Part shown: positions 3,129-40,635 of the stretch, piece by piece | Numbering within the stretch: the stretch's first letter is position 1 | Layout of the letters: each line of letters starts with the position of its first letter | Notes under the pieces: model-generated | The model's input: the letters and a program-made list of their open reading frames with translations, nothing else | Told to the model about the DNA's origin: nothing | Databases searched by the model: none | NCBI GenBank assembly: GCA_903847205.1 | Contig: CAINDA010000035.1 | Span: 1 to 64,000, forward strand | Source: an uncultured Bacteroidota bacterium | Lineage (GTDB): Bacteria > Bacteroidota > Bacteroidia > 2-12-FULL-35-15 | Length of the DNA: 64,000 bases | Direction of reading: 5' to 3' | Translations under genes and position numbers: made by a program

Positions 3129-5867
3129 TTAAACTTTTATTCCAATAATTAAAACATCATCGACTTGCTCTAAACTGCCTCTCCAATTTTCAAATGTATT
3201 ATTTAAAATTTCTTTTTGCTCATTCATTGTTTTTGTTTGAATTGAAAGCAATAATTTTTTAAGTGCTTTGTACTTATATTTCTTTCCTTTTTCACCGCCG
3301 AACTGATCGGCATAACCATCTGTAAAAGTATAAATAATATCACCCTTTCGAAGGCCTGCTGTATTAAGTGAAAATGGTTTTTGTTCGCCGTAATGCATCC
3401 CTACCGGCATTTTATCGGGCTTATATATGATTAAGGCATTATTACGCAAAATCCAGAGCGGATTATTTGCACAGGCAAAACGGAGCCATAAATTTTTGAA
3501 GTCGTATATACAAAGTGCGGCATCCATACCATCTTTACTTTCAATAATTGAACCTTCAGGATTTAATGAATAAATAAGCTGGCTGCGGACATATTCTAAT
3601 ATTTTTTCGGGTGAATCAATTCGTTTTTCAACAACGGCTTCATTCAGATAAGAGATATTGAGCAGGCTCATAAATGCTCCGGGTACACCATGGCCGGTGC
3701 AGTCAGCTGTAATCATTACAAATTTATTGTCAATTATATTTGCCCAATAAAAATCGCCGCTGACAATATCTTTTGGTTTATATAAAACAAAATATTCGGG
3801 CAGCGATTTTTTCAACAATGTATCGCTTGCAAGCAATGCCTGCTGAATTCGTTTTGCAGAATAAATACTGTCGGTTATTTCACGGTTCTTTTCGCGGATA
3901 ATATTTTCGGTTTGTTTTCTATCTGTGATGTCGGTATCTATCACAACTAATTTTTTAATATTCCCCTGTTTATCCAGAATGGGCGTAAGGGTACTATGCA
4001 CCCATAATTTGCGCCCGTCCTTGGTAATGTTTAGTGCTTCATAAGTAATAGTCTGCTTATCGGCAATACTTTTATTTACTTTTTCATTAATGTCTGGGTC
4101 GTGGCTTATTTCCTGAACAGTGTTCCCGCGTTCTTTCCATTCCTCAAGGGTATAACCCAGCAGGCGCACCATACCGTCATTAATCCACTCCAGTGTGCCG
4201 TCAGATTCGCAGATAACAACTCCGTTATCCGTTTCACTTGCAACAATGGAAAGCTTTTCTAATTCAATATTTAATTTTTGTTTGTTGCGATAGCTTCTGT
4301 AAACAAATAAAGTAAAAACAATAAGAACCGCTAATCCCGATAAAACCGACAAAAGAAAAATGCGCTGTTTTTGCTGCTCCGCTTTAGCTTCGGTATCTTT
4401 TTTATCCTGCTCTGCTTTGGCCATGCCGGCTTTCTTTTCAAATTCAAACTGCATTTGTTTTTTCAGTAATGATTTTTGCGCTTCAACATCATTAATTTTA
4501 TCTGCAGTAAGTTTAAATAAGTCCTGCATATCCATTGCCTGCTTATAATGCTCAGCAGCCACGGCCATAAGTCCGGAATTGTAAGCGGCTTTTGCCATCA
4601 TTTTATAAATGATGCTTAACCTTTCGCTGGCATTGCGAATATGTTCGGGATAATTTAGTTCTTTAGCATAAACAAGCGACTGGCTGCAGAATTCTTCAGA
4701 TTTGTTAAGTAAAATTGCTGCTTTATTTTTTTCAAGAATAGGATTATACTGCTTTAAATAAATGCCGCTGATATTATAGAGAGAATTGGTAATACCTCTT
4801 TTATCTCCCGTTTCCTGCCATATTTTTAAACTCTTTTGGTTTAATTCCAATGCTTTGCTGTATTTACTGCTGATAGAATCTTGATTTGTTTCCAGCTCAG
4901 CCTGCATGCCATAAATAAAACCGATGTTATTGAGGGTACGGGCTATTCCTTCTTTTTCTCCTAATTCTTCCTGTATCTTTAAGCCATTATTGTAATATTC
5001 CAATGCTTTGATGAAATACTCTTCTTTAACTGCGCTGCCGAAAAACGAAACACCTTGATCTTTGAAAAGCCCGCCAATATTATTGAAAGAACGGGCAACA
5101 CCTTTTTTATCGCCTGTTTCCTTCAGTATTTTTAAGCTTTTGTGATAATATTCCAAAGCTTTTGGAATGTCACCCTGGCTGCTATAAACCTGACCAATAT
5201 TATGAAGCGAAATTCCAATGCCTTGCTTATCTCCGATTTCATCTTGTATTTTTAAACCTTTGTTATAATATTCTAGTGCTTTGGAAATATCACCCTGACC
5301 ATTATAGATAAGTCCAATATTACAAAGGGATATTGATGCACCTTGTTTATCACCGATTTCATTTTGAATTCGTAAACTTTTAGTGTAACAGTCCAAGGCA
5401 CTTGGTATGTCACCCCGGTTGTTGTAAATACGCCCAATATTATTGAGTGAGTTGGCAATGCCGCGTTTGTCGCCTATTTCTTCGCGGAGTTTTAAACTCT
5501 GGTTATATAATTCCAAAGCCTTGGGAATATTGCCCTGCTCCTTATAAACATAACCCATGTTGTTTAAGGCATTGGCTTTGGCGGTGAGAAATGATTTTTT
5601 TTCTGCATCATCAGCCTTCGGCAATTTTTCATCTGATATTTTAATTGCTTTTAAGCATAATGGCAGCACCGTATCAATTTTTGAAAGATACAGTTCTTCG
5701 GAAAGGGCAACAAAAGCATTTGCTTTTAAGGTATCACTTTGAGCGGTTAACAAAAGCTTTTGAATAGAATCTATTTTTGTATTTACAACAGCGGGTTTAC
5801 TCTGAGAGAAGCAGTTTAAAGTTAAAAGGCCAAAATGTAAAATAGTAAAGAATAGAATTTTTTTCAT
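3129..5867 (-). CDS. TPR / transmembrane / PAS / SpoIIE-type serine phosphatase
   Basis: A 912-residue membrane sensor phosphatase. A signal peptide (1-22) leads to a periplasmic TPR solenoid (about 80-430, repeats of 40 residues with NNIGxIYxxQGDIxKALEYYxKxLKI), a charged coiled coil (450-500), one membrane helix (503-523), a PAS domain (541-655, ending DITDRK) and a PP2C/SpoIIE phosphatase domain (690-912). Metal-binding motifs are intact: SGDFYW (Asp705), ADCTGHG (Asp722), FTDGYADQFGG (Asp849) and VDDVLIIGI (Asp903/904). Such proteins dephosphorylate anti-sigma-antagonist proteins in partner-switching; the partner is not visible here. It lies 11 bases after its paralogue, so the two form an operon. 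The PAS domain is the main difference between the two. Confidence 0.92.
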   Translation of the reverse strand: MKKILFFTILHFGLLTLNCFSQSKPAVVNTKIDSIQKLLLTAQSDTLKANAFVALSEELYLSKIDTVLPLCLKAIKISDEKLPKADDAEKKSFLTAKANALNNMGYVYKEQGNIPKALELYNQSLKLREEIGDKRGIANSLNNIGRIYNNRGDIPSALDCYTKSLRIQNEIGDKQGASISLCNIGLIYNGQGDISKALEYYNKGLKIQDEIGDKQGIGISLHNIGQVYSSQGDIPKALEYYHKSLKILKETGDKKGVARSFNNIGGLFKDQGVSFFGSAVKEEYFIKALEYYNNGLKIQEELGEKEGIARTLNNIGFIYGMQAELETNQDSISSKYSKALELNQKSLKIWQETGDKRGITNSLYNISGIYLKQYNPILEKNKAAILLNKSEEFCSQSLVYAKELNYPEHIRNASERLSIIYKMMAKAAYNSGLMAVAAEHYKQAMDMQDLFKLTADKINDVEAQKSLLKKQMQFEFEKKAGMAKAEQDKKDTEAKAEQQKQRIFLLSVLSGLAVLIVFTLFVYRSYRNKQKLNIELEKLSIVASETDNGVVICESDGTLEWINDGMVRLLGYTLEEWKERGNTVQEISHDPDINEKVNKSIADKQTITYEALNITKDGRKLWVHSTLTPILDKQGNIKKLVVIDTDITDRKQTENIIREKNREITDSIYSAKRIQQALLASDTLLKKSLPEYFVLYKPKDIVSGDFYWANIIDNKFVMITADCTGHGVPGAFMSLLNISYLNEAVVEKRIDSPEKILEYVRSQLIYSLNPEGSIIESKDGMDAALCIYDFKNLWLRFACANNPLWILRNNALIIYKPDKMPVGMHYGEQKPFSLNTAGLRKGDIIYTFTDGYADQFGGEKGKKYKYKALKKLLLSIQTKTMNEQKEILNNTFENWRGSLEQVDDVLIIGIKV

Positions 5868-5878
5868 AAGCAGTACTA

Positions 5879-8239
5879 CTAAACTCTTATTCCAATAATC
5901 AATACATCATCTACCTGTTCAAGGCTGCCTTTCCAGGATTCAAATGTTTTATTTAAAATTTCTTTCTGCACCTCCATAGGCTTATCGGCATTGGCCGCTA
6001 ATAATTTTTGAAGCTGTTTGTATTTAAATTTCTTTTCTTTTTCACCTCCGAACTGATCAGCATAACCATCGGTAAATGTATATACAATATCGCCTTTGCG
6101 GAGCCCGAGAGTATTCAAAGAAAAAGGTTTTTGTTCGCCGTAATGCAGGCCTACAGGCATTTTATCAGGCTTAAATATTATTACTTCCTTATTACGCAAA
6201 ACCCATAAAGGATTATTGGCGCAGGCAAAACGAAGCCATAAGTTTTTAAAATCAAATATACATAAAACGGCATCCATACCGTCTTTACTTTCAACTTCGG
6301 AACCTTCCGGATTTAAGGAATTGATTATCTGGGCGCGGATATAGTCTAATATTTTTTCGGGAGAATTAATTTTTTTCTCGATTATTGCTTCATGCAGATA
6401 GGAGATATTTAATAAACTCATAAAAGCTCCGGGTACACCATGGCCGGTGCAATCGGCTGTAATCATTACCAGCTTATCATCTATAGCTGCTGCCCAGTAA
6501 AAATCACCGCTGACAATATCTTTTGGTTTGTATAAAACAAAATGTTCGGGCAGCTGTTTTTTTAAAAAAGTATCGCTTGCAAGCAAAGCATACTGAATGC
6601 GTTTTGCATACTGGATACTGCTTGTTATATGTTTGTTTTTTTCTTCAACAATCTGTTTCTGCTCTTCAATGGTAACATTTTTTTCTGCAAGCTCTTTGTT
6701 TGCTTTCTGCTTTTGCAGATAACTTTTAAAAATAAGGAGCACCAAAAGCAACACAAAAGTAAAACCGATAATCAATGAATTTTTTATCAATGCCTGTTTC
6801 TGTTTTTCTTCTTTTGCCAAGGCATCTTTTTTATCCTGCTTTGCTTTAGCTGCACTTTCTTTTTTCTCAAATTCATACTGCATCTGCCTTTTGAGGGCTA
6901 GTTTTTGAGCTTCAACATTATTTATTCTGTCGGAAGTTGCTTTAAATAATTCCTGCATATCAACAGCCTGTTTGTACCTGCCTGCTGCCGCTGCTAAAGA
7001 ACCTGAGCTGTACGATGCTTTAGCCATTGCTTTATATATTTCGGCCAATGTCTGACTTGCTTTCAGTATCATTCCCTGATAACTCAAATCCTTAGCTATG
7101 TCTAAAGAGCGCCTGCAATTTTCTTCGGCTTTTTTTAAAAACTCGGCACTTTTTGAAGCATTTAAAGGCACTGAAGCCTGCATAAAATAAATGCCGCCGA
7201 TATTATTGAGGGTATTGGCAATGCCTTGTTTATCGGCAATTTCTTCACGGAGTTTTAAACTTTTATCATACCATTCTAATGATTTATTTAAATTATCTGC
7301 AATAGAATCGGGGCTTTGCTCACGCTTGGCTTTATTCTCATGCATGCTGCCAAGGTTATTAAGCGAAATTGCAATGCCCTGCTTATCACCTATTTCTTCA
7401 TTAATTTTTAAACTTTTGAAATACCATTCCAAAGCTTTGTTGAATTTACTGCGCACCGAATCGGGATTCTCCTCATTTTCCGCCTGCTTTTTATAAACAT
7501 AAGCAATGTTACTAAGCGTAGTGCCGATGCCTTTTTTATCGCCCAGCTGTTCACGGATTCTTAAACTTTTATGATACCATTCGAGGGCCATCGGAATATC
7601 TTCCTGCTCAAGATAAATACTCCCGATGTTATTTAACGAGTTGGCAATATCGTCCTGGTTGCCCAGCTCCTCCCGAATTTTTAAACCTTTCAATATTAAT
7701 TCAAGTGCCTTGGGAATATCGCCCTGGATGCGGTAAACGAGACCTATATTATTGAGCGATGTAGCAATTCCTTTTTTGTCGCCTATTTCATATTGAATTT
7801 TTATGCTTTCGTGATACCATTCTAAAGCACGGGGAATATCGCCCTGAGATTTATGTACATAGCCTATGTTATTTAATGCAAGAGCTTTGGTAACCAGGAA
7901 AGATTTTTTTTCGGCAGCTGCGGCTTTTTCCAAACCAGCATCTGCAATTTGTATTGCCTTTAAACAAAGGGGTATAACTGTATCAATGTTGGTAACATAA
8001 AGTTCTTCAGTGAGAGCAGTATAAATTTTTGCTTTTAAAGTATCATTTTGAGCTGTTTTTAAAAGCTGCCGAAGCGAGTCTATTTTAGGATTGTGCACTT
8101 CTGACAGCTGTAAGCGGGGCTGCACCGTACCATATAAAGAACTGAAAAGGCTGTTCAAAAGAAAGAGAACAGCAAAAAAAGAGAAATTTTGAATTTTGAA
8201 TTTCCCTTTATAAAAATATCCGGATGTTATCCTGTCCAT
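5879..8239 (-). CDS. TPR / transmembrane / SpoIIE-type serine phosphatase
   Basis: A 786-residue paralogue of the next gene downstream. The layout is signal peptide or N-terminal anchor (about 18-37), periplasmic TPR repeats (115-360), coiled coil (430-482), one membrane helix (485-505), a short second coiled coil in place of the PAS domain (515-540), and SpoIIE phosphatase (566-786). The motifs SGDFYW, ADCTGHGVPGAFMS, DGMDA, FTDGYADQFGG and VDDVLIIGI match the paralogue almost residue for residue, indicating duplication with later gain or loss of PAS. The ATG start gives a somewhat long n-region before the hydrophobic core; no better start is seen. It is the first gene of the two-gene operon. 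Confidence 0.92.
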   Translation of the reverse strand: MDRITSGYFYKGKFKIQNFSFFAVLFLLNSLFSSLYGTVQPRLQLSEVHNPKIDSLRQLLKTAQNDTLKAKIYTALTEELYVTNIDTVIPLCLKAIQIADAGLEKAAAAEKKSFLVTKALALNNIGYVHKSQGDIPRALEWYHESIKIQYEIGDKKGIATSLNNIGLVYRIQGDIPKALELILKGLKIREELGNQDDIANSLNNIGSIYLEQEDIPMALEWYHKSLRIREQLGDKKGIGTTLSNIAYVYKKQAENEENPDSVRSKFNKALEWYFKSLKINEEIGDKQGIAISLNNLGSMHENKAKREQSPDSIADNLNKSLEWYDKSLKLREEIADKQGIANTLNNIGGIYFMQASVPLNASKSAEFLKKAEENCRRSLDIAKDLSYQGMILKASQTLAEIYKAMAKASYSSGSLAAAAGRYKQAVDMQELFKATSDRINNVEAQKLALKRQMQYEFEKKESAAKAKQDKKDALAKEEKQKQALIKNSLIIGFTFVLLLVLLIFKSYLQKQKANKELAEKNVTIEEQKQIVEEKNKHITSSIQYAKRIQYALLASDTFLKKQLPEHFVLYKPKDIVSGDFYWAAAIDDKLVMITADCTGHGVPGAFMSLLNISYLHEAIIEKKINSPEKILDYIRAQIINSLNPEGSEVESKDGMDAVLCIFDFKNLWLRFACANNPLWVLRNKEVIIFKPDKMPVGLHYGEQKPFSLNTLGLRKGDIVYTFTDGYADQFGGEKEKKFKYKQLQKLLAANADKPMEVQKEILNKTFESWKGSLEQVDDVLIIGIRV

Positions 8240-8450
8240 AAAAAAATGAAAGGCTGAAGATAGGAATAATTAAAATATAATTTATTTCAGCTGTTGTTTT
8301 TATCAGTGGAATGTAAAAAAACGTAAGCTTGAAAATGTGTGAATGCTGTAACTTATTTAAAAGATTTTATTCCGGATTATTAATCATTTATTCATTTTCG
8401 TAATTTGAACTCTCGGTCAAATAGGGGAGCCTATTGCCATTTACCGCTTC

Positions 8451-8682
8451 GTTTTACGCCGCGCAAAAATAATTTCAGACCGGACTTCAGGCATTTTATC
8501 CCAGCCTTCTGTGATTTTATGCCGGGCTAAAATCATTTTATTCTTAACAATTAGTCATTTTATGCCGGACAAAAATGATTTTATCCCAGCCTTCAGCGAG
8601 TTTATGCCGGGCTTCTGCCATTCTATCCCAGCCTTTTGTCGCCGAAGCCTGACGTAAATCCATTTTATAGCAGCGTAAAATC
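8451..8682. repeat. Degenerate 21-bp tandem repeat array, 11 units
   Basis: The stretch 8240-8731 has no convincing gene; most of it is this array. Units start at 8451, 8472, 8493, 8514, 8535 (22 bp), 8557, 8578, 8599, 8620, 8641 and 8662. Two alternating flavours are visible: ATTTTATCCCAGCCTT plus a variable end, and ATTTTATGCCGGGC or ATTTTATGCCGGAC followed by AAAA. The second flavour is an imperfect palindrome (TTTTA...CCGG...AAAA). Units differ by several bases, so the array is old or under selection for pattern rather than sequence. There are no unique spacers, so it is not CRISPR. Confidence 0.85.
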
Positions 8683-8731
8683 AATGAATCCTCAAAAACA
8701 CAACTCAGCTTGCCTGAGTGTGACATTAGAA

Positions 8732-9085
8732 TTATAATCCATTTAAGAACTGTCCCACTCGATATGTCAGCCTTGTTGTAAACGTGTCGGAATTATAAAT
8801 ATATTGACATCCTCCTTGTGTCAAGGCCGCAGTCAAAACTGTCCCCCCCTTTTGGTTGAATTGAATTTGTCCGATGAATTTGTCCTTTTTCATATTCTCT
8901 TTTTTACCATTAATGATTTCTTTAAAAATAGAAATTGCTATGCTGTCTTTATATGATTTGAAAATTGTGCCGGCCGGAAGATACTGAACTTTTATTTCGT
9001 CCACATTTTTTAGAATGTCTTGGTGTTGCTGCTTAGAGTTACACGAAAAAAGTAAGATTGTAAAAATGTAAATGAGATTTTTCAT
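8732..9085 (-). CDS. Small putative lipoprotein
   Basis: A 117-residue protein with a short lipoprotein signal (IYIFTILLFSC, predicted lipidated Cys15). The mature part has charged residues and a segment KFIGQIQFNQKGGTVLTA, then GGCQYIYNSDTFTTRL. It is the last gene of the accessory run on this strand and lies 66 bases after the lipoprotein gene at 9152-9715. The family is not recognised. Coding is supported by the intact signal, the ATG and normal composition. Confidence 0.7.
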   Translation of the reverse strand: MKNLIYIFTILLFSCNSKQQHQDILKNVDEIKVQYLPAGTIFKSYKDSIAISIFKEIINGKKENMKKDKFIGQIQFNQKGGTVLTAALTQGGCQYIYNSDTFTTRLTYRVGQFLNGL

Positions 9086-29212: not shown

Positions 29213-29220
29213 TATATTTG
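29213..29220 (+). promoter_or_regulatory. Candidate -7 element TATATTTG close to start
   Basis: An exact TAnnTTTG match ends nine bases before the ATG at 29230. Transcription starting five to seven bases downstream would leave almost no 5' leader. Confidence 0.5.
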
Positions 29221-29229
29221 CAGCCTGAA

Positions 29230-31608
29230 ATGAAAAAAGGCCTCCTCATAATTTTGATTTTATGCAGCATTAAAAACTGTATTTCACAAACCTACACGCA
29301 GACTATTCGAGGCCGCGTAATAGATATAGACTCAAAGTCCCCGATTTTCGGTGCAAACATACTTCTTTTAAACAGCGATACATTAATAGGTTCAACCACT
29401 GATGTGGATGGCAAATTCCGTATTGAAAAAGTGCCTGTGGGCAGACGCGCTCTTAAAGTAACCTCTATCGGCTACGAAGAAACAATATTAAACAACCTCA
29501 TTTTAACCTCAGGCAAAGAAATTGTACTAACCGTTGAACTCCGAGAAAAAGTATATTCATCTCAAACAATTGAAATTGTTGCAGAAAAAGATAAATCAAA
29601 AGCGAATAATGATTTGGTTTCTGTAAGCGCAAGAAATTTTCAAGCCGAAGAAGCTAACCGTTATGCAGGCAGCAGAGGCGATCCAAGTAAAATGGTTTCT
29701 AATTATGCAGGAGTATCATCAGGTAACGATGCACAAAATAATATTATTGTGCGCGGGAATTCACCACTCGGTGTATTGTGGCGTTTAGAGGGCGTTGATA
29801 TTCCAAATCCAAATCACTTTTCAACACAAGGTGCTACTGGCGGGCCCGTTAGTATGCTTAACAGCAATCAGCTGGGCAGCTGCGATTTTTTAACCGGTGC
29901 ATTTCCTGCTGAATACGGCAATAAAATGGCTGCAGTATTTGATTTGAAATTACGCAACGGCAATAATGAAAGAACTGAATTTACCGGACAGGTTGGTATC
30001 AATGGCATTGAACTGGGTGCTGAAGGGCCCATATCTAAAAAGCAAGGCAGCTCCTATATTATAAATTACCGCTATTCAACTTTAGAGGTTTTTAATAAAT
30101 TAGGAATTTCATTCGGTGTTTCCGGAAGCCCTCAATACCAGGATTTATCATACAAAATAAATATACCAACCGAAAAATCGGGCATTTTTACTTTTTGGGG
30201 AATCGGCGGCATCAGTAAAATATCTTTATTAGACAGCCAGCAGAAAAAGGGTGATTGGTCATTCACCTCAAAAGGGCAGGATCTGGTTTTCAAATCAAGC
30301 ATGGGTGCTGCCGGACTTTCTCATACATATTTTTTCAAAAGTAATATTTCAGGAAAACTTTCATTATCCGCTTCAGCAAGCGATTTTGATGTTACTGTTG
30401 ATACACTTTCGCCTGTTGATATTTCTAAATTCCGCTATGCAGGCAACAAATCAACTGAAGGAAATATTATAGCCAACTATTCAGTTACTGATAAAATAAA
30501 CGCAAGTCACTTAGTTAAAATAGGCGCAATTTATCAAACTATTTTATTTAATGCTCATTCGTATGTTTATTATTCTTCTTATAGTAAATATATTACCCAG
30601 CTGGATGTAAATAAATCGTCAGCCGGTTTGATGCAATCCTTTGTTGAATGGCAGTACCGCCCTTCTGAAAAAATCACAATCAACAGCGGAGTTCATTACC
30701 AATATTTTTTACTAAACAATACCTGGGCGGTTGAACCCCGTTTAGGAGCCCGTTTTAAGCTTTCTCCGAAACAGGCTTTCAGTATCGGATACGGAGTACA
30801 CAGCCAAATGCAGCCGACTATATATTATTTTTATAAAAATTATGTACCAGCTTCCGACAGCTATTACAGAAGCAACCGAAATTTAGATTTTTCAAAAAGC
30901 CAGCATGTTATTTTAAATTACGATTATAATTTTGCTAACGGAATGAGATTCAAATTCGAAACATATTATCAATATTTATATAATATACCTGTACAGCAAA
31001 ATCTAAATTCATCATTCTCAATGATCAATGAAGGCAATTCTTTGGAGGGGCTTACCCTTATTGATACATTGGTGAATAAGGGAACAGGCAAAAATTACGG
31101 CATTGAATTTACTTTTGAAAAATTCTTCAGCAAACATTATTATTTTTTAGCAACAACATCTATATATCAGTCAAAATATAAAGGGAGCAACAATATTGAA
31201 TACCATACAAGTTATGACGGAGGCTATGTGTTTAATGCACTTGCAGGATATGAATTAGCTTTAGGAAAGAGCAAAAACAAATCTATTTTACTTGATTTGA
31301 AATATACACAGGCAGGCGGAAACAGGTTTACACCGATAGATTTACAAAAATCAATTCTTGCACAGGAAGCTGTTTACAACGACAAAGAAGCATTTTCACA
31401 ACGATTTAAAGACTACTCCAGATTTGATGTTAAGCTATCGTTTAAAACAAACAGAAAAAAAACCTCTCAGAGTTTATTTGTAACTGTTGAAAATATATTC
31501 GATACAAAAAATATTCTCAGGCAATCCTATAATTCTGATTCGAAAACCATTCAAACTGAATATCAATTCGGTTTGTTTCCTTACGGCGGGTACCGGATAG
31601 AATTCTAA
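29230..31608 (+). CDS. TonB-dependent receptor with carboxypeptidase-regulatory-like domain
   Basis: A 792-residue outer-membrane receptor. Signal peptide 1-20 (ends CISQ); N-terminal CarboxypepD_reg-like domain (25-110: IRGRVIDIDSKSPIFGANIL, VPVGRRALKVTSIGYEE); plug domain (about 120-250, NIIVRGNSPLGVLWRLEGVD, then GAFPAEYGNKMAAVFDLKLR); and a beta barrel ending in GGYRIEF with the terminal Phe expected for BAM recognition. The substrate is unknown; no SusD partner follows, so it is not a polysaccharide-utilisation pair. A TTG four codons upstream lies in the promoter element, so the ATG at 29230 is chosen. Confidence 0.93.
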   Translation: MKKGLLIILILCSIKNCISQTYTQTIRGRVIDIDSKSPIFGANILLLNSDTLIGSTTDVDGKFRIEKVPVGRRALKVTSIGYEETILNNLILTSGKEIVLTVELREKVYSSQTIEIVAEKDKSKANNDLVSVSARNFQAEEANRYAGSRGDPSKMVSNYAGVSSGNDAQNNIIVRGNSPLGVLWRLEGVDIPNPNHFSTQGATGGPVSMLNSNQLGSCDFLTGAFPAEYGNKMAAVFDLKLRNGNNERTEFTGQVGINGIELGAEGPISKKQGSSYIINYRYSTLEVFNKLGISFGVSGSPQYQDLSYKINIPTEKSGIFTFWGIGGISKISLLDSQQKKGDWSFTSKGQDLVFKSSMGAAGLSHTYFFKSNISGKLSLSASASDFDVTVDTLSPVDISKFRYAGNKSTEGNIIANYSVTDKINASHLVKIGAIYQTILFNAHSYVYYSSYSKYITQLDVNKSSAGLMQSFVEWQYRPSEKITINSGVHYQYFLLNNTWAVEPRLGARFKLSPKQAFSIGYGVHSQMQPTIYYFYKNYVPASDSYYRSNRNLDFSKSQHVILNYDYNFANGMRFKFETYYQYLYNIPVQQNLNSSFSMINEGNSLEGLTLIDTLVNKGTGKNYGIEFTFEKFFSKHYYFLATTSIYQSKYKGSNNIEYHTSYDGGYVFNALAGYELALGKSKNKSILLDLKYTQAGGNRFTPIDLQKSILAQEAVYNDKEAFSQRFKDYSRFDVKLSFKTNRKKTSQSLFVTVENIFDTKNILRQSYNSDSKTIQTEYQFGLFPYGGYRIEF

Positions 31609-31824
31609 GAAGCCCTTTTCATTAATATCCTAATGTTCATTCTGAATCTCTTCTTTTTTCGGGAGTAAAGAAAGGAGCTTCCCCAAAATAAACAAGACCC
31701 TCATTACTAAAAGCAAGCTCTTCTGCATGACAGTATTTTAATTGAAAATCTGTAAGAATTTAGGATTTATTTCAGCATAAAATATTATAAAACAGCTATT
31801 TAAATGTAATTATACAGAAGTTCA

Positions 31825-32139
31825 ATGTCTACGTACATTACTGCCTTACTTATATACTTAAAGCAGCTGCATACCTGCATTAAGCCGCTACCGATATACA
31901 TCAGGCGATTATCAATTTAGATAACCGCCTTACACATATGAATAAAACGGCTATTAATATAGATAACTGCCTTATACATATGCATAATGGCCTTAGCGAT
32001 ATACATAACGGGCTTTCACATATAGATTTGGCTGTTATCGATACGCGTAACTGTCTTACCGATATACATGAAGCTGTTACCTATATAGGTATCTATATTA
32101 CCTAAATACATAAAGAGTTTACCTATGTATAGCAGAGAG
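31825..32139. repeat. Degenerate 21-bp tandem repeat array, 15 units
   Basis: In the 582-base spacer between two convergent genes (31609-32190), units begin every 21 bases without a single indel: 31825, 31846, 31867, 31888, 31909, 31930, 31951, 31972, 31993, 32014, 32035, 32056, 32077, 32098, 32119. The approximate consensus is TTACCGATATACATAACxGC plus one base. The core has dyad symmetry CCGnTATnnATAnCGG. Individual units match the consensus at roughly 60-85 percent by eye. No gene is seen in the spacer. The sequence differs from the array at 8451 but the period is the same. Confidence 0.9.
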
Positions 32140-32190
32140 TATCAAGTACAAATACGGAGGTGGTGTTGAGAGTTTTCTTGGCAGGAGGAC

Positions 32191-35100
32191 TTATCGCAGT
32201 AATGTAACATCACCCTGCTTGTCAAATATTTTTCCATTATTCAGCTTTACATAAGCTTTCCAGATGTACACATCCTGCTGGCATAATTTCCCTTTATAAA
32301 AGCCGTCCCAGCCTTTTTTAATATCAAAAGATTCAAAAACTTTTTCTCCCCAGCGGTCAAAAATTTCAAATCTATAATCAACAACGCCAGAAGTGTAAGG
32401 AAAGAAAATATCATTATCCAAGCTGAACATTGTGTAAAATCCATCGTTGCCTGATCCCTGCGGATTGGGTGTAAATGCGTTCGGAAAAGTAACATCAGCA
32501 TTTGTTGTAACAGAAGATACAGCAGTATCCTTGCAGCCAAACTGATTAGCCGCAAAAAGCTGTATTGGAAAAACACCAACTGACGTGTAAAGGTGGCTCG
32601 GATTAGTTAAGGTTGAGCCAGAACCATCTCCAAAATTCCAAAGATAAGTTACTGCCCCTGCTGATTGATTATTACAAACCATCTGATCAAATGGAAGCTC
32701 AATATTAGTAGCATTCACAGAAAATGCTGCTATCGGGAACGGATAAGCAGTTACTTTATAAGGCTGGGCTAAATTGTTGCTTGTGCAGCCTCCCATGGTT
32801 TTTACTAATAAACTTACTTGGTAAGTTCCCGGCTGCTGAAAAACATGTGTTGGATTTTTAATGGTTGAAGTATTATTACCTCCAGATAAAGGATCCCCGA
32901 AATTCCAACTCCATCCAATAATTGAATCACCGGGAATTCCAGGCGGAATTGTAGAACCATCGCTGAAGTTAATAGTAAGCGGAAAACACCCCGAAGTATC
33001 ACTTGCATTTATTTTAATTACAGGTAAAATAGTTATAACAGTTATCTGCCCTGCTGTTGGAGCCGGGATCTGACAAAAGCTGCCGTCGGGGAGCACGCTG
33101 CCAAGCAGTAGGGCCGGAGTAGCGACAATATCTGAATTATAGGTGTATTGTACAACAGAATTAGGCGAATTGGATATTACCGTTCCATCACCGAAATCCC
33201 AGGTATAGGATATTGCTGTGGGGCTTACAGCTGTAAAAGTAACTGTAAGCGGCGGACAGCCTATTTTAGGGTTAAACGAAAATGTTCCGGTAGGTCCAGG
33301 TACAACAACGCTGTTCGATAATGTATCGGTGCATCCTGCGCTGTTAGTAACAACCTCCGTAACTGTATAAGTTCCGGGAACAGTATATGCATGCATAGGA
33401 TTTTGCTGTGTTGCAGAAGCATTATCGCCAAAACTCCAATGCCAGGCTGTAATACCTAATCCGGTTGAATGATCGGTGTACTGCATATTTGTAACACCGC
33501 ATCCTATTAAAAGTACAGAATCAGTAAAGGCGGCAGTCGGCATCTGAATAATTATTTGATGCTGTATTGAATTAATACATCCATTTACATCTGTTACAGT
33601 CATTTTTACAGTGTACGTATTATCAGCAGTAAATGAATGGGAAGTAATCTGGCCGGAACCTGCGGCAGAAGCATCCCCGAAATTCCATGAGAAAATTGCG
33701 GGAGCCACGGCTGTAGTTCCTGAAGCATCAAAAGCAACAAGAGCATTTCTACAGGCAAAGCTATCGGCAACAAAAACAGGTGTTGGAAAGGTTGGTAATA
33801 TATAATTGGGCTTTGTCAAAGTCTGAACGCAGCCATTTTTATCAGTTACTGTCATAGTTACAGAATAAGAACCTGATACAGCATAAGTATGATTAACTGA
33901 AGGAATAACTACTGTCTGGCTTGGAGTGCCGTCGCCGAAATTCCATGTCCATTGAACAAGAGTAGAGTCAGAAACAGAAGCATCTGTTAAAATTACGTTA
34001 AACGGTGCGCAGCCAGCTGTTGTATTTGCATTGAAATCAGGAGTAGGCCCCTGCACGGTAACAATCCTGGTAGTGCTGTCCTTACAGCCATTGATGTCGG
34101 TAATAATTAATTTTGCAGTATCTAGTTTTGGAAGAAAATATACATGCAGGAAAGGGGTAACGGATGATGTTAAATCCGGGCTGCCGTCCCCGAATTTCCA
34201 AAGAACAGTATTTGCACTCTGTGATGTGTTGGTGAACGTTACAACTAAAGGATAACAGCCTTTGACGGGTGAAACGCTGAATTGCGCATTAGGAACCGAG
34301 ATAGTAAATGACTGAATAAAAGAACTATGGCATCCGGTTGAAAAATTATATGCAGTAAGAGTAACAATTTTTATTCCGATTGTCGCATATATATGGGTGG
34401 GATGCAGACTGTCGCTTAAATGAGGAGTCCCGTCGCCGAAGTCCCACACAACAGAATCAGCACCGATAGAAGCATCCGTAAAACTTACTGAATATTTATT
34501 TACACAGTTAAGAACGTAGGTAAACCTGGGAATCGGCGGAAAAATTGTTACTATATTATCAATTTTAAGTGTATCAGGGCAGCCGTGATTATAAACAATT
34601 TCCTCAACATAAAAAGTACCCGTGTCCGGAAAAAGATGATTAACAGGAGAAAAAGGCATGGGTGCTCCTGAAGGAGTTGAAAAGGTTCCTTCAGCCAAAT
34701 CAAATTTCCAATAGGCAGAATCCGCGCCGGTTGAAAGATCGGTAAACTGAGCGTTTGTTCCAAAGCAGACTGTAGGATCAACAATGCTGAAATTTGCATG
34801 AGGCTTAGTTCCGGTTTTAACGTAAGCATTTTTTGTAATACTGTCTCTGCAGCCAGCTGCAGTAACAACTTTAAGCGACACATTGTAAGTACCTGTGCCG
34901 GGATAGTTATTGCTTACATTGGGAACAGCGGTTGTTGCTGTACCATTTCCGAAATCCCAGATATAACTGACAATAGGGTCGGAGCCTGATGTGCTGGTGC
35001 TGTTAAAATTCGATACCAACGGGGCACATCCTTTAATTGGCAAGCCGGTAAAACTAGCAACCGGATGAGAAATCACGATGTAAGCAGGCTTTTTCAAAGA

Positions 35101-36393
35101 TGTTACACAGCCGTTTACACTTGTTACAGTAAGTGTTACCGAATCAACTCCCGGCGCTGCATAGGTATGAATAAAAGGTGCTGAAGAAACTGTTGAAAAA
35201 GGAGGAGTCCCGTCTCCAAAATCCCAATTGTAATTTGTACCCCCGATTGATGTATTACTGAATGTTACATTAAAAGGAACAGTGCAGCTATGGGTTTGAC
35301 CAGCGCTGAAGGCCACTGTTGCAGAAGGAGCCACTGTGATATAAGAATTTTTTGTTTTTATATCCTGACAGCCGGCGGATCCCTCTGTTAAAATAACAGT
35401 GTACGTTCCGGCAGCAGCATAAGCATGCGAAGGATTAGGTGCGTTAGAGGTTGTACCATCGCCAAAATCCCATAACTGAATACCCGCCAGCGGAAATGAC
35501 ATATCAGTAAAATTTACTGCATTGTTGGCGCAGACAATTGTATTATCGGCATTAAAATCTGCAACAATATTTTGAATACCGACATAATTTGTTCTCACTT
35601 TTGTATCGCTGCAAGCTCCCTGGGTAACTGTTAGTGATACATTGAAGGTTCCTAAAGTAGTGTATGTATTTGATGGATTTTTAAGAGTTGACGTATTACC
35701 ATCTCCAAAACTCCATGAATAAGTGGGTGTTCCGGCGTAAGTGGAAGTGTTAGTAAAATTGACTGTTAACGGCGGTGAGCAGGCTGAAATAGGGCTGCCA
35801 GTAAAAGAAGCAACAGGGGCAGGTTTAACAACAACATATTTTATGTTACTGTTGGAGCAGCCGTGAATATCAGTAACTATTACAGTTACAGGAAAGGAAT
35901 CGACCGCTGCAAATGCGTGAGTTTCTGAAGGTGTAGAGGTGGTCTGACCATTGCCATCTCCAAAATCCCATGCCCATGTGGAAATCGCACCGCCGCCTAT
36001 AATAGAATTATCTGTAAAAGTAACAGGCTGCCCGGGACATGAAGGAGTTATACTAGTTGTGAAACCTGCGATGGGATCAGCAAAAACTGTTATTGTTGCT
36101 GTGGCCGTACTGGTACCGCCGCCACCTGCAGTTGCAGTTAATGTAATTGTAAATGTACCCGGTGTTGAAAATACAGCGCCAGGACTCGTTCCGGTGGAAC
36201 TATTTCCATTTCCAAAATTCCACGCATAGGAAACCGCTCCGGTAGATGTATTTGTAAAAGATACATTAAGCGGTGCACATCCTGAAGTAACATTGGTAGT
36301 AAAGCCAGCTACTTGAGCCCTGCTGATCAGAGGGGTCAAAATACAGGTTAACAGCCATGGAAAAATAAAAAGACGTACAGATTTTATTTTCAT
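32191..36393 (-). CDS. Multi-PKD adhesin with T9SS type B sorting domain
   Basis: A 1400-residue exported protein counted from ATG 36393. The signal peptide (1-27, ends SRAQ) is followed by about fifteen PKD domains of 80-90 residues, each marked by WxFGDG or a variant (WNFGNGNSS, WDFGDGTTSN, WKFGDGSPDL, WSFGDNASAT, WNFGDPLSGG); the seventh is degenerate (WKFDLAEG). The C-terminus (about 1305-1400) is a CHU_C domain: FPNAFTPNPQGSGNDGF, FDRWGEKVFESFD, GWDGFYKGKLCQQDVYIW. Such proteins are surface adhesins or matrix components exported by T9SS. The frame extends to a TTG at 36417, but that codon lies inside the -7 element, so the ATG is used. Confidence 0.92.
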   Translation of the reverse strand: MKIKSVRLFIFPWLLTCILTPLISRAQVAGFTTNVTSGCAPLNVSFTNTSTGAVSYAWNFGNGNSSTGTSPGAVFSTPGTFTITLTATAGGGGTSTATATITVFADPIAGFTTSITPSCPGQPVTFTDNSIIGGGAISTWAWDFGDGNGQTTSTPSETHAFAAVDSFPVTVIVTDIHGCSNSNIKYVVVKPAPVASFTGSPISACSPPLTVNFTNTSTYAGTPTYSWSFGDGNTSTLKNPSNTYTTLGTFNVSLTVTQGACSDTKVRTNYVGIQNIVADFNADNTIVCANNAVNFTDMSFPLAGIQLWDFGDGTTSNAPNPSHAYAAAGTYTVILTEGSAGCQDIKTKNSYITVAPSATVAFSAGQTHSCTVPFNVTFSNTSIGGTNYNWDFGDGTPPFSTVSSAPFIHTYAAPGVDSVTLTVTSVNGCVTSLKKPAYIVISHPVASFTGLPIKGCAPLVSNFNSTSTSGSDPIVSYIWDFGNGTATTAVPNVSNNYPGTGTYNVSLKVVTAAGCRDSITKNAYVKTGTKPHANFSIVDPTVCFGTNAQFTDLSTGADSAYWKFDLAEGTFSTPSGAPMPFSPVNHLFPDTGTFYVEEIVYNHGCPDTLKIDNIVTIFPPIPRFTYVLNCVNKYSVSFTDASIGADSVVWDFGDGTPHLSDSLHPTHIYATIGIKIVTLTAYNFSTGCHSSFIQSFTISVPNAQFSVSPVKGCYPLVVTFTNTSQSANTVLWKFGDGSPDLTSSVTPFLHVYFLPKLDTAKLIITDINGCKDSTTRIVTVQGPTPDFNANTTAGCAPFNVILTDASVSDSTLVQWTWNFGDGTPSQTVVIPSVNHTYAVSGSYSVTMTVTDKNGCVQTLTKPNYILPTFPTPVFVADSFACRNALVAFDASGTTAVAPAIFSWNFGDASAAGSGQITSHSFTADNTYTVKMTVTDVNGCINSIQHQIIIQMPTAAFTDSVLLIGCGVTNMQYTDHSTGLGITAWHWSFGDNASATQQNPMHAYTVPGTYTVTEVVTNSAGCTDTLSNSVVVPGPTGTFSFNPKIGCPPLTVTFTAVSPTAISYTWDFGDGTVISNSPNSVVQYTYNSDIVATPALLLGSVLPDGSFCQIPAPTAGQITVITILPVIKINASDTSGCFPLTINFSDGSTIPPGIPGDSIIGWSWNFGDPLSGGNNTSTIKNPTHVFQQPGTYQVSLLVKTMGGCTSNNLAQPYKVTAYPFPIAAFSVNATNIELPFDQMVCNNQSAGAVTYLWNFGDGSGSTLTNPSHLYTSVGVFPIQLFAANQFGCKDTAVSSVTTNADVTFPNAFTPNPQGSGNDGFYTMFSLDNDIFFPYTSGVVDYRFEIFDRWGEKVFESFDIKKGWDGFYKGKLCQQDVYIWKAYVKLNNGKIFDKQGDVTLLR

Positions 36394-36414
36394 AATGAAA
36401 TTCTCCAATCCGAA

Positions 36415-36422
36415 CAAAATTA
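36415..36422 (-). promoter_or_regulatory. Candidate -7 element TAATTTTG
   Basis: An exact TAnnTTTG match on the minus strand, 21 bases before the ATG of the PKD adhesin. Confidence 0.5.
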
Positions 36423-40473: not shown

Positions 40474-40608
40474 ATTGCTCCCCGCATCCGACGCGGCATC
40501 ACGTTTGTTCAGGGCTCACGCGCGATTTCATAATATTAATTATTGCTCCCGACATATGACGCGGCATCGCGCTTGTTCATGCCTAACGCGTGGTTTCATA
40601 ATATTAAT
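40474..40608. repeat. Two 67-bp direct repeats
   Basis: Copies at 40474-40540 and 40542-40608 align without gaps at 56 of 67 positions. Both start ATTGCTCCC, contain GACGCGGCATC and end TTTCATAATATTAAT. They occupy most of the 332-base spacer 40343-40674, which has no gene. The GC-rich inner part contrasts with the AT-rich surroundings. Confidence 0.85.
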
Positions 40609-40635
40609 TTTCGAATATAGTTTATTACATCTCGC

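Follow-up and report, generated by a model that had tools for sequence, protein, structure and literature searches.

Intergenic arrays of period 21 bp with private unit sequences stand upstream of uncharacterised gene families in Bacteroidia and may be multi-site operators

Introduction

Between two minus-strand reading frames of a Bacteroidota genome lies a short tandem array, and elsewhere in the same stretch of DNA a second array repeats at the same interval with another sequence. The question raised by this locus is what such arrays are, and why a period should be shared when the sequence is not. The stretch analysed, hereafter the window, comprises the 64,000 nucleotides at the start of contig C35 (381,789 bp), which belongs to a genome of 5.49 Mb in 72 contigs. 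A sequence-only reading of the window had proposed a general class of element in which the period is the conserved property. Two turns of B-DNA measure 21.0 bp. Genomes, contigs and loci are cited below by G, C and L numbers.

The two arrays of the window

Wrap-around alignment of the first array (array A, Table 1) to the unit of a related array on contig C58 (identity 0.70) gave 11 unit starts with spacings of 21, 21, 21, 21, 22, 21, 21, 21, 21 and 21 bp, i.e., nine of 21 and one of 22, which agrees with the earlier count of eleven 21-bp units, one of them 22 bp long. The alignment score was 179, against 28 for the highest of 100 dinucleotide shuffles. Over 105 bp the lag-21 match is 0.56, and none of 1000 dinucleotide shuffles reached the lag score of array A when lags 10-65 were searched, which excludes a chance origin; TRF detects the array as well, as periods 42 and 21. 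Both unit flavours that had been described, ATTTTATCCCAG and ATTTTATGCCGGGC, are present, and the palindromy about CCGG that had been ascribed to some units is found in the unit with GCCGGGCTAAAAT, an imperfect palindrome centred there. The array also includes the palindrome TAAAATCATTTTA, similar to a core, AAATNATTT, that is considered below. The open reading frame at 8544-8726, previously regarded as a product of the repeat, does exist on the minus strand, mostly within array A, and is taken as a by-product here too.

Table 1. Coordinates, in the window, of the two arrays and of features in and beside array A.
Feature	Position	Strand	Remarks
Array A	8449..8683	+	11 units, 21 bp each, one of 22; orientation matches related C58 array
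Single 22-bp unit ATTTTATTCTTAACAATTAGTC of array A	8535..8556	+	C58 array counterpart likewise 22 bp
60-aa ORF through array A	8544..8726	-	judged spurious (period = seven codons)
Flanking gene, TPR repeats and SpoIIE domain	5879..8239	-	Pfam TPR_12 3.8e-37, SpoIIE 3.5e-17
Flanking 117-aa ORF at expected module-gene position	8732..9085	-	no module protein matches
Array B, 21-bp period	31797..32182		unit unrelated to array A

That the window holds two arrays of equal period and unrelated sequence was confirmed for array B, which sits between the 3' ends of the convergent genes 29218-31608 (+) and 32191-36417 (-). Its lag-42 match is 0.69, and 0 of 1000 dinucleotide shuffles reach its score. 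Array B is strongly diverged, and an array further along the same contig (C35:371811) is nearly perfect. Array B is probably another solo array, without a partner gene of the kind described below.

The start codon of the flanking TPR and SpoIIE gene lies about 210 bp from array A. This gene is the second of two neighbouring minus-strand genes (3129-8239; 912 and 786 aa) that adjoin array A and have similar ends. Elsewhere in the window, a 68-bp tandem duplication with an 83% match occupies 40474-40609.

A class of period-21 arrays across genomes

A lag scan was performed on samples, not on the whole genome, that amounted to 1.53 Mb from seven genomes: 860 kb (0.86 Mb, 16%) of the window's own genome; 238.5 kb of the congener G015 and 200 kb of two others, G009 and G010; 160 kb of G120, from another family; and 68 kb of G025 and G038. 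Non-coding DNA shows an excess at period 21, with 35 arrays at 21, nine at 14 and seven at 16, and coding repeats show no peak there (one at 21). The sampled DNA thus bears out the proposal of a general class that conserves period and not sequence. The class is represented by 25 non-coding rows in the own genome, 17 in G015 and seven in G120, a part of them weak, and by none in the sampled 200 kb of G009 and G010 or the 68 kb of G025 and G038. Neither G009 nor G010 has the partner gene families, and with no array in their 200 kb the class is confined to some lineages.

A comparison of unit families, which the sequence-only reading had called for, indicates that units are private to each array: an all-vs-all blastn of 49 rows returned a single match of 26 bp. 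The set excludes the array at C58:41620, whose unit is common to array A, and shared units occur only between duplicates such as array A and C58:41620 or the C8 and C68 copies. Two arrays of the own genome (G000) were also seen to have period 20 (G000:C35:66008-66535 and 312864-313525), the first of which changes its unit sequence half way.

Decay of coding repeats, named beforehand as an explanation that would overturn the proposal, explains the arrays poorly. A fully open frame is present in 41 of 48 arrays, near the 37.8 +/- 2.4 of column-permuted arrays; a weak residual remains in the total of open frames (100 vs 84.9 +/- 6.6, 2.3 s.d. high). The arrays form a class of Bacteroidia intergenic arrays of about 3-22 units, with a spacing of two helical turns and private sequence, of which no published description was found in the open-access literature searched.

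Gene families that face the arrays

The flanks of the first arrays held genes for unknown proteins, two of them mutually homologous, whose start codons face the array. These partner genes are a new element that the sequence-only reading had missed. When the genus was searched with one partner protein, most loci had an array with lags at multiples of 21 (21x) just upstream, each with another unit. Partner genes were sought with a family-1 profile and a second family, and 52 homologs with fetched loci were examined. A 21x-lag array lies within 1.5 kb upstream in 43 of the 47 genus homologs with at least 400 bp of upstream sequence, and downstream in 3 of 41. The four misses are L085, where a weak signal (0.524) lies 1.3 kb away, and the partial genes L102, L103 and L111. 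Family matches without a fetched locus are left out of this count, as are L132 and L180, which have no upstream sequence; a further homolog beyond the 47, L178, has an array (0.92). As a background, an array stands upstream of 16 of 259, 20 of 250 and 14 of 96 genes on three sampled contigs (6-15% of all genes). The upstream counts are not independent, since the homologs are related by descent; the units being private, the arrays cannot simply have been carried along unchanged with the homologs.

This association bears directly on whether the arrays are neutral minisatellites whose 21-bp period reflects a mutational bias of the lineage. Neutrality would suit solo arrays that lie, like those of the window, in unremarkable intergenic DNA, and the slippage-like homogenisation of units, but it does not predict so strong an upstream bias over the downstream side and over genes at large, nor the lack of any non-coding array in 200 kb of two congeners without the families. 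It is regarded as very improbable and, as a full explanation, is contradicted by the gene association, although it may hold for single solo arrays.

Family 1 occurs sporadically in the wider class, in 29 of 395 genomes. For other taxonomic families in the wider class, 14 of the 21 loci with more than 300 bp of upstream sequence (23 fetched) show an array, and these 14 are spread over seven or eight families other than the window's own; the array is absent upstream of L186, L193, L197, L198, L200, L202 and L203, several of which are partial genes. At L195 (G230) and L199 (G307), both among the 14, lag 14 outscores the multiples of 21, slightly or clearly. Loci fetched by name had an array in all 11 cases with enough upstream sequence (14 fetched), nine of which apparently repeat, with identical proteins, same-genus genomes already counted.

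Sampled arrays were also surveyed by eye, with eight weak rows of the lag scan dropped and C58:41620 added to give 42. A gene of the module kind, i.e., with a helical N-terminus and FN3, a CarboxypepD_reg-like domain or no known domain, faces 9 of the 21 arrays from the own genome, 7 of the 14 from G015 and 5 of the 7 from G120. These fractions are biased upward, since some stretches were chosen for holding a module gene; in an unselected stretch of G120 the proportion is 3 of 5. The other 21, like the two arrays of the window, lack a module-type gene and either are isolated or precede ordinary genes; five of the 42 arrays lie between convergent genes, and one solo array (C58:59675) adjoins a fragment of a module gene (41.7% identity, 72 aa, E 5.5e-6).

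No sequence relatives of family 1 above noise were found in Pfam, NCBIfam or PDB. An AlphaFold2 model from 14 sequences (pLDDT 89.8, pTM 0.70) predicts a helical hairpin (residues 9-30 and 34-73), short helices and an FN3 domain (144-229). The best 50 of 1679 PDB matches are essentially FN3 or other Ig-like folds at a TM of about 0.3 of the query, as are the viral structure matches listed; the helical hairpin had no structural match among the PDB and viral matches listed. A plasmid- or phage-borne element is not supported, as neither PLSDB plasmids nor INPHARED phages matched (tblastn, one family-1 protein each) and IMG/VR gave no match to profile A3. Likewise, a known anti-phage defence gene was rejected, 0 of 10 effector proteins matching PADLOC models at E 0.05. 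A ParE-type toxin gene (Pfam ParE_toxin 1.4e-6) was noticed 3' of one module gene, at L190:395-685.

Duplicated cassettes and the origin of array A

Copies within a genome share the array, the leader between array and gene, and the gene, and similarity is lost beyond. In L126 and L133, homology (92.5% over 1116 bp) begins at the array and extends past the gene; the C8 and C68 copies show a block edge on the 5' side, and the C63/C5 and C55/C5 copies one about 60 bp beyond the 3' end of the gene. The ends of blastn blocks are the only evidence on cassette ends. Two further matches lie upstream, namely a 57-bp stretch, 98% identical, about 490 bp upstream of the array in L126 and L133, with different sequence between, and, in L115 and L118, a 49-bp match that contains a hairpin and lies about 46 bp before the arrays; these leave a longer left end or a larger element possible. 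Six of ten family-1 matches of the own genome touch contig ends (C55:44, C5:11, C5:116781, C63:11, C8:11 and C68:24591), the draft assembly being broken inside duplicated modules.

The sole relative of array A found among 40 related genomes and its own genome is the array at C58:41636-41892, which lies upstream of a family-1 gene and contains the AAATNATTT core. The search of the 40 relatives used the C58 array as query and found no DNA relatives outside the own genome. Array A and G000:C58:41655-41892 are 75% identical over 238 bp, with their 22-bp units opposite each other, and the similarity ends within about one unit of the array ends. Downstream of array A, the place of the module gene is taken by an unrelated convergent ORF, and a remnant of a module gene beside array A was looked for and not found, so that array A is a gene-less relative of a module array. 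Judged from sequence comparison alone, the best explanation is that array A and the array in the module G000:C58:41620-42754 have a common origin, and that array A lost its gene or never carried one and is decaying.

Leaders, unit spacing and symmetry

Leaders are A-rich and 12-268 nt long in 48 modules (about 500 in C8 and C68), six of the 48 having leaders of only 12-51 nt. The Bacteroidota promoter consensus does not occur in them above the level of the reverse strand (3 vs 3). Upstream of the arrays, TAnnTTTG sites number eight on the sense strand and three on the reverse, which is not significant. By a strict test, no intrinsic terminator was found in any of the 48 leaders; the sensitivity of this test is low, since it finds only 12 of 45 after module genes, where a hairpin and T tract following the stop are visible by eye in most of 40 module sequences.

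Spacing was assessed in 58 module arrays, picked because the array was visible; loci without an array and L124, whose array is 1.3 kb away, were excluded. Among periods 19-23, 21 fits best in all 58. Unit spacings are 21 bp in 516 of 567 cases, 20 bp in 22 and 22 bp in 20, and their mean is 20.998 bp without three double steps; the alignment to a 21-bp consensus from which they derive somewhat favours 21. Consensus units are enriched in dyads, with 5.96 of 10 pairs against 5.36 in shuffled units (z 6.2) and a longest arm of 4.2 against 3.5 (z 6.7; 57 units in both tests). A perfect arm of at least 5 bp is present in only 23 of the 57, i.e., the dyad symmetry is statistical and not a property of every unit. 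Unit similarity falls to about background once the module proteins are below about 60% identity. In the 33 arrays with all spacings of 21, to which the folding test was limited, predicted RNA folds exceed those of column-permuted controls in stability by nearly the same margin in sense (mean z -1.61) and antisense (-1.60). Arrays are clearly inverted relative to the gene between L096 and L104 (67% protein identity) and between L115 and L118 (92%), and keep their orientation in three close pairs (L108/L109, L121/L130 and L126/L133). Strand-neutral folding and inversion between paralogs together favour an element that acts at the DNA level and independently of orientation.

These observations weigh on a model in which the arrays act as RNA, in the manner of toxI-toxN. 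The gene order is the same as there, with tandem repeats directly 5' of a single gene, the shortest leaders could hardly accommodate a promoter, and the surplus of sense-strand TAnnTTTG sites, though not significant, points the same way. Opposed to it are the lack of a strand preference in folding, the inversions between close paralogs, the absence of a leader terminator by a test of low sensitivity, the modelled fold of hairpin and FN3 with no nuclease among the best 50 of 1679 PDB matches (only family 1 was modelled), and units that are not conserved within protein groups. Nor did any array in the window and ten loci match Rfam at the gathering threshold, by which a known Rfam RNA as the identity of these arrays was rejected. 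With no transcript data at hand, a small-RNA role is not favoured and is considered unlikely. The one Rfam hit noted, a DUF805b RNA (RF02914, 42.8 bits) at L158:3264-3300, lies outside the array, 3' of the module gene, and probably belongs to the next gene.

Equally unlikely is a helical-phase spacer, in which no protein reads the unit and the array is filler, grown by slippage between an upstream site and the promoter and tolerated only in whole double turns. The mean spacing combined with free sequence fits this well, as does a unit similarity that is near background already at 45-60% protein identity. A spacer has no need of dyad-enriched units, however, and would not be expected between convergent genes, where five of 42 arrays lie; moreover, the duplicated block of L126 and L133 starts at the array, so that no adjacent upstream site travels along.

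Small HTH genes on the far side of the arrays

Small HTH proteins recur on the side of the array that faces away from the module gene. XRE types stand there in L097, L099, L107, L113, L116, L125 and L133, LuxR/GerE types in L119, L123 and L127 and, weakly or by eye, in L120, L121, L130 and L192, and a TetR stands beside L104. At E 0.01, about 11 of 55 far-side ORFs carry a Pfam HTH in group scans whose members are not all listed singly (25 of 48 and 25 of 103 families are listed); the matches listed are HTH_3 in six, GerE in three, HTH_26 in two and TetR in one of the 55, and some fall below the curated cut-off. Downstream ORFs, scanned singly, gave 0 of 40 (44 in total, four long ones excluded). 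An XRE profile built from 13 other XRE genes of the genus matched 5 of 55 far-side, 0 of 44 downstream and 1 of 835 background ORFs, the lone background match lying about 640 bp from an array. The profile excludes the five far-side matches; the test is still not fully independent, since its seeds were retrieved by a search with those five.

The enrichment is far from universal, no recognised HTH gene being present in about 35 of the 46 modules with at least 300 bp of far-side sequence, and none was seen among the ORFs flanking array A or its C58 relative. At L126, an XRE-like frame with a stop lies about 300 bp upstream of the array and is open in the paralog (L133:810-1118). Conversely, most other XRE genes of the genus that were examined do not adjoin arrays: of 25 further loci, two gave a 21x-lag signal of any kind (L259, where it lies at the end of the locus, and L260, where it is weak), and ten stretches from array-bearing genomes, two of which repeat the 25 loci, yielded clear arrays in L275 and L279 and a weak one in L274; a further XRE gene stands back to back with the array C24:149112. 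The AAATNATTT core is present in the array of four of five modules with an XRE of the SYxSxxE type, one of which has it a single time, and in 3 of the remaining 43. This pairing is suggestive only, as the core was chosen post hoc and the five modules are related.

Far-side HTH genes are left unexplained by a model in which the array marks the end at which a mobile cassette transposes or recombines, being recognised through its structure like attC sites or MITE ends, and gene control is secondary. Such an end would account for the cassette copies, for an array without a gene such as array A, for the sporadic occurrence of family 1 and for dyad symmetry combined with free sequence. Without a dedicated search, no transposase or integrase came to notice among the flanking ORFs, and this explanation is considered doubtful, on a par with the RNA and spacer models.

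A proposed operator model

With a probability of roughly one half, the arrays are private multi-site operators of their own regulators in mobile regulator-array-effector modules. Beyond the observed class, with its private units, upstream association, block duplication, statistical dyads and far-side HTH enrichment, binding and regulation are inferred. The putative cassette would run from the 21-bp array, preceded in some cases by a small HTH regulator gene, through a short A-rich leader to an effector gene and a terminator, the effector being a predicted helical protein, often with FN3 or another small beta domain. Each array would act as an operator with many sites for one dedicated HTH dimer, whether XRE, LuxR-type or other, and a spacing of 21 bp would set the dimers on one face of the DNA, allowing cooperative binding and control of the effector gene. 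Regulator and unit may drift together, which would render the array private, and slippage would homogenise the units. More tentatively, the modules may be an undescribed mobile type of many Bacteroidia, in which a period-locked private array is the address of a co-evolving regulator and drives unknown helical/FN3 effectors.

A fixed helical-repeat length combined with free sequence and unknown gene families is unusual in bacteria and offers a handle on poorly known proteins. Extrapolation from the samples, if it holds true, implies at least a hundred mutually orthogonal arrays per genome, including solo arrays of dead modules. Should the arrays be operators, each genome would contain many orthogonal regulator-site pairs and natural series of co-evolved HTH specificities, which could help to decipher how proteins recognise DNA and supply parts for synthetic control. 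The arrays also help to account for breaks in the assemblies of these genomes and for their spurious ORFs.

Comparison with known systems

The nearest known systems are type III toxin-antitoxin loci and BrickBuilt, and, as far as the parts of the sources consulted allow, the arrays fail the defining features of both. Like ToxIN, they are tandem repeats of fixed length directly upstream of one gene (43 of 47 here), and repeat number varies and sequence differs between systems, according to the sections available (PMC5086642). ToxI repeats are described there as 34-36 nt long and present in 2.8-5.5 copies; a terminator precedes the toxin gene, the toxin is an endoribonuclease, and repeats are conserved within toxin groups (PMC5086642). 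The arrays described here, in contrast, have a period of 21 and about 3-22 copies, no leader terminator was found, the modelled fold is not a nuclease, and the units turn over faster than the protein. Membership among type III toxin-antitoxin systems was rejected: the repeats do stand upstream of the gene, but no leader terminator was found, by a test of low sensitivity, and the fold modelled for family 1 is not ToxN-like.

With BrickBuilt of Porphyromonas gingivalis the arrays have in common that, in the portions of the source seen, it is an intergenic minisatellite without spacers that occurs many times in a Bacteroidota genome and is probably mobile (PMC4596501). BrickBuilt has one 23-nt unit in 19 copies and small inverted-repeat ends, and no partner gene was seen in those portions (PMC4596501), unlike the present arrays, which have gene families attached, a period of 21 and a unit of their own in each array. 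The single unit common to all BrickBuilt copies has no counterpart here, since comparison of the 49 rows gave one 26-bp match and only duplicates share units.

Repeats linked to a gene, or dyads with free sequence in the case of attC, are also known from REP/RAYT, CRISPR arrays and integron attC cassettes. The present modules differ in having no spacers, and no cas, RAYT or integrase gene was noted in their neighbourhood, although membership was not tested. Clustered HTH operators, the cooperative repressor sites of the lambda CI/XRE kind, consist of palindromic sites at helical spacing, with the regulator gene alongside and the controlled gene downstream, and usually comprise two or three sites. 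The arrays resemble them in having palindromic sites in helical register, as a statistical enrichment and not in every unit, and depart from them in holding about ten sites in exact register, in many unrelated arrays per genome.
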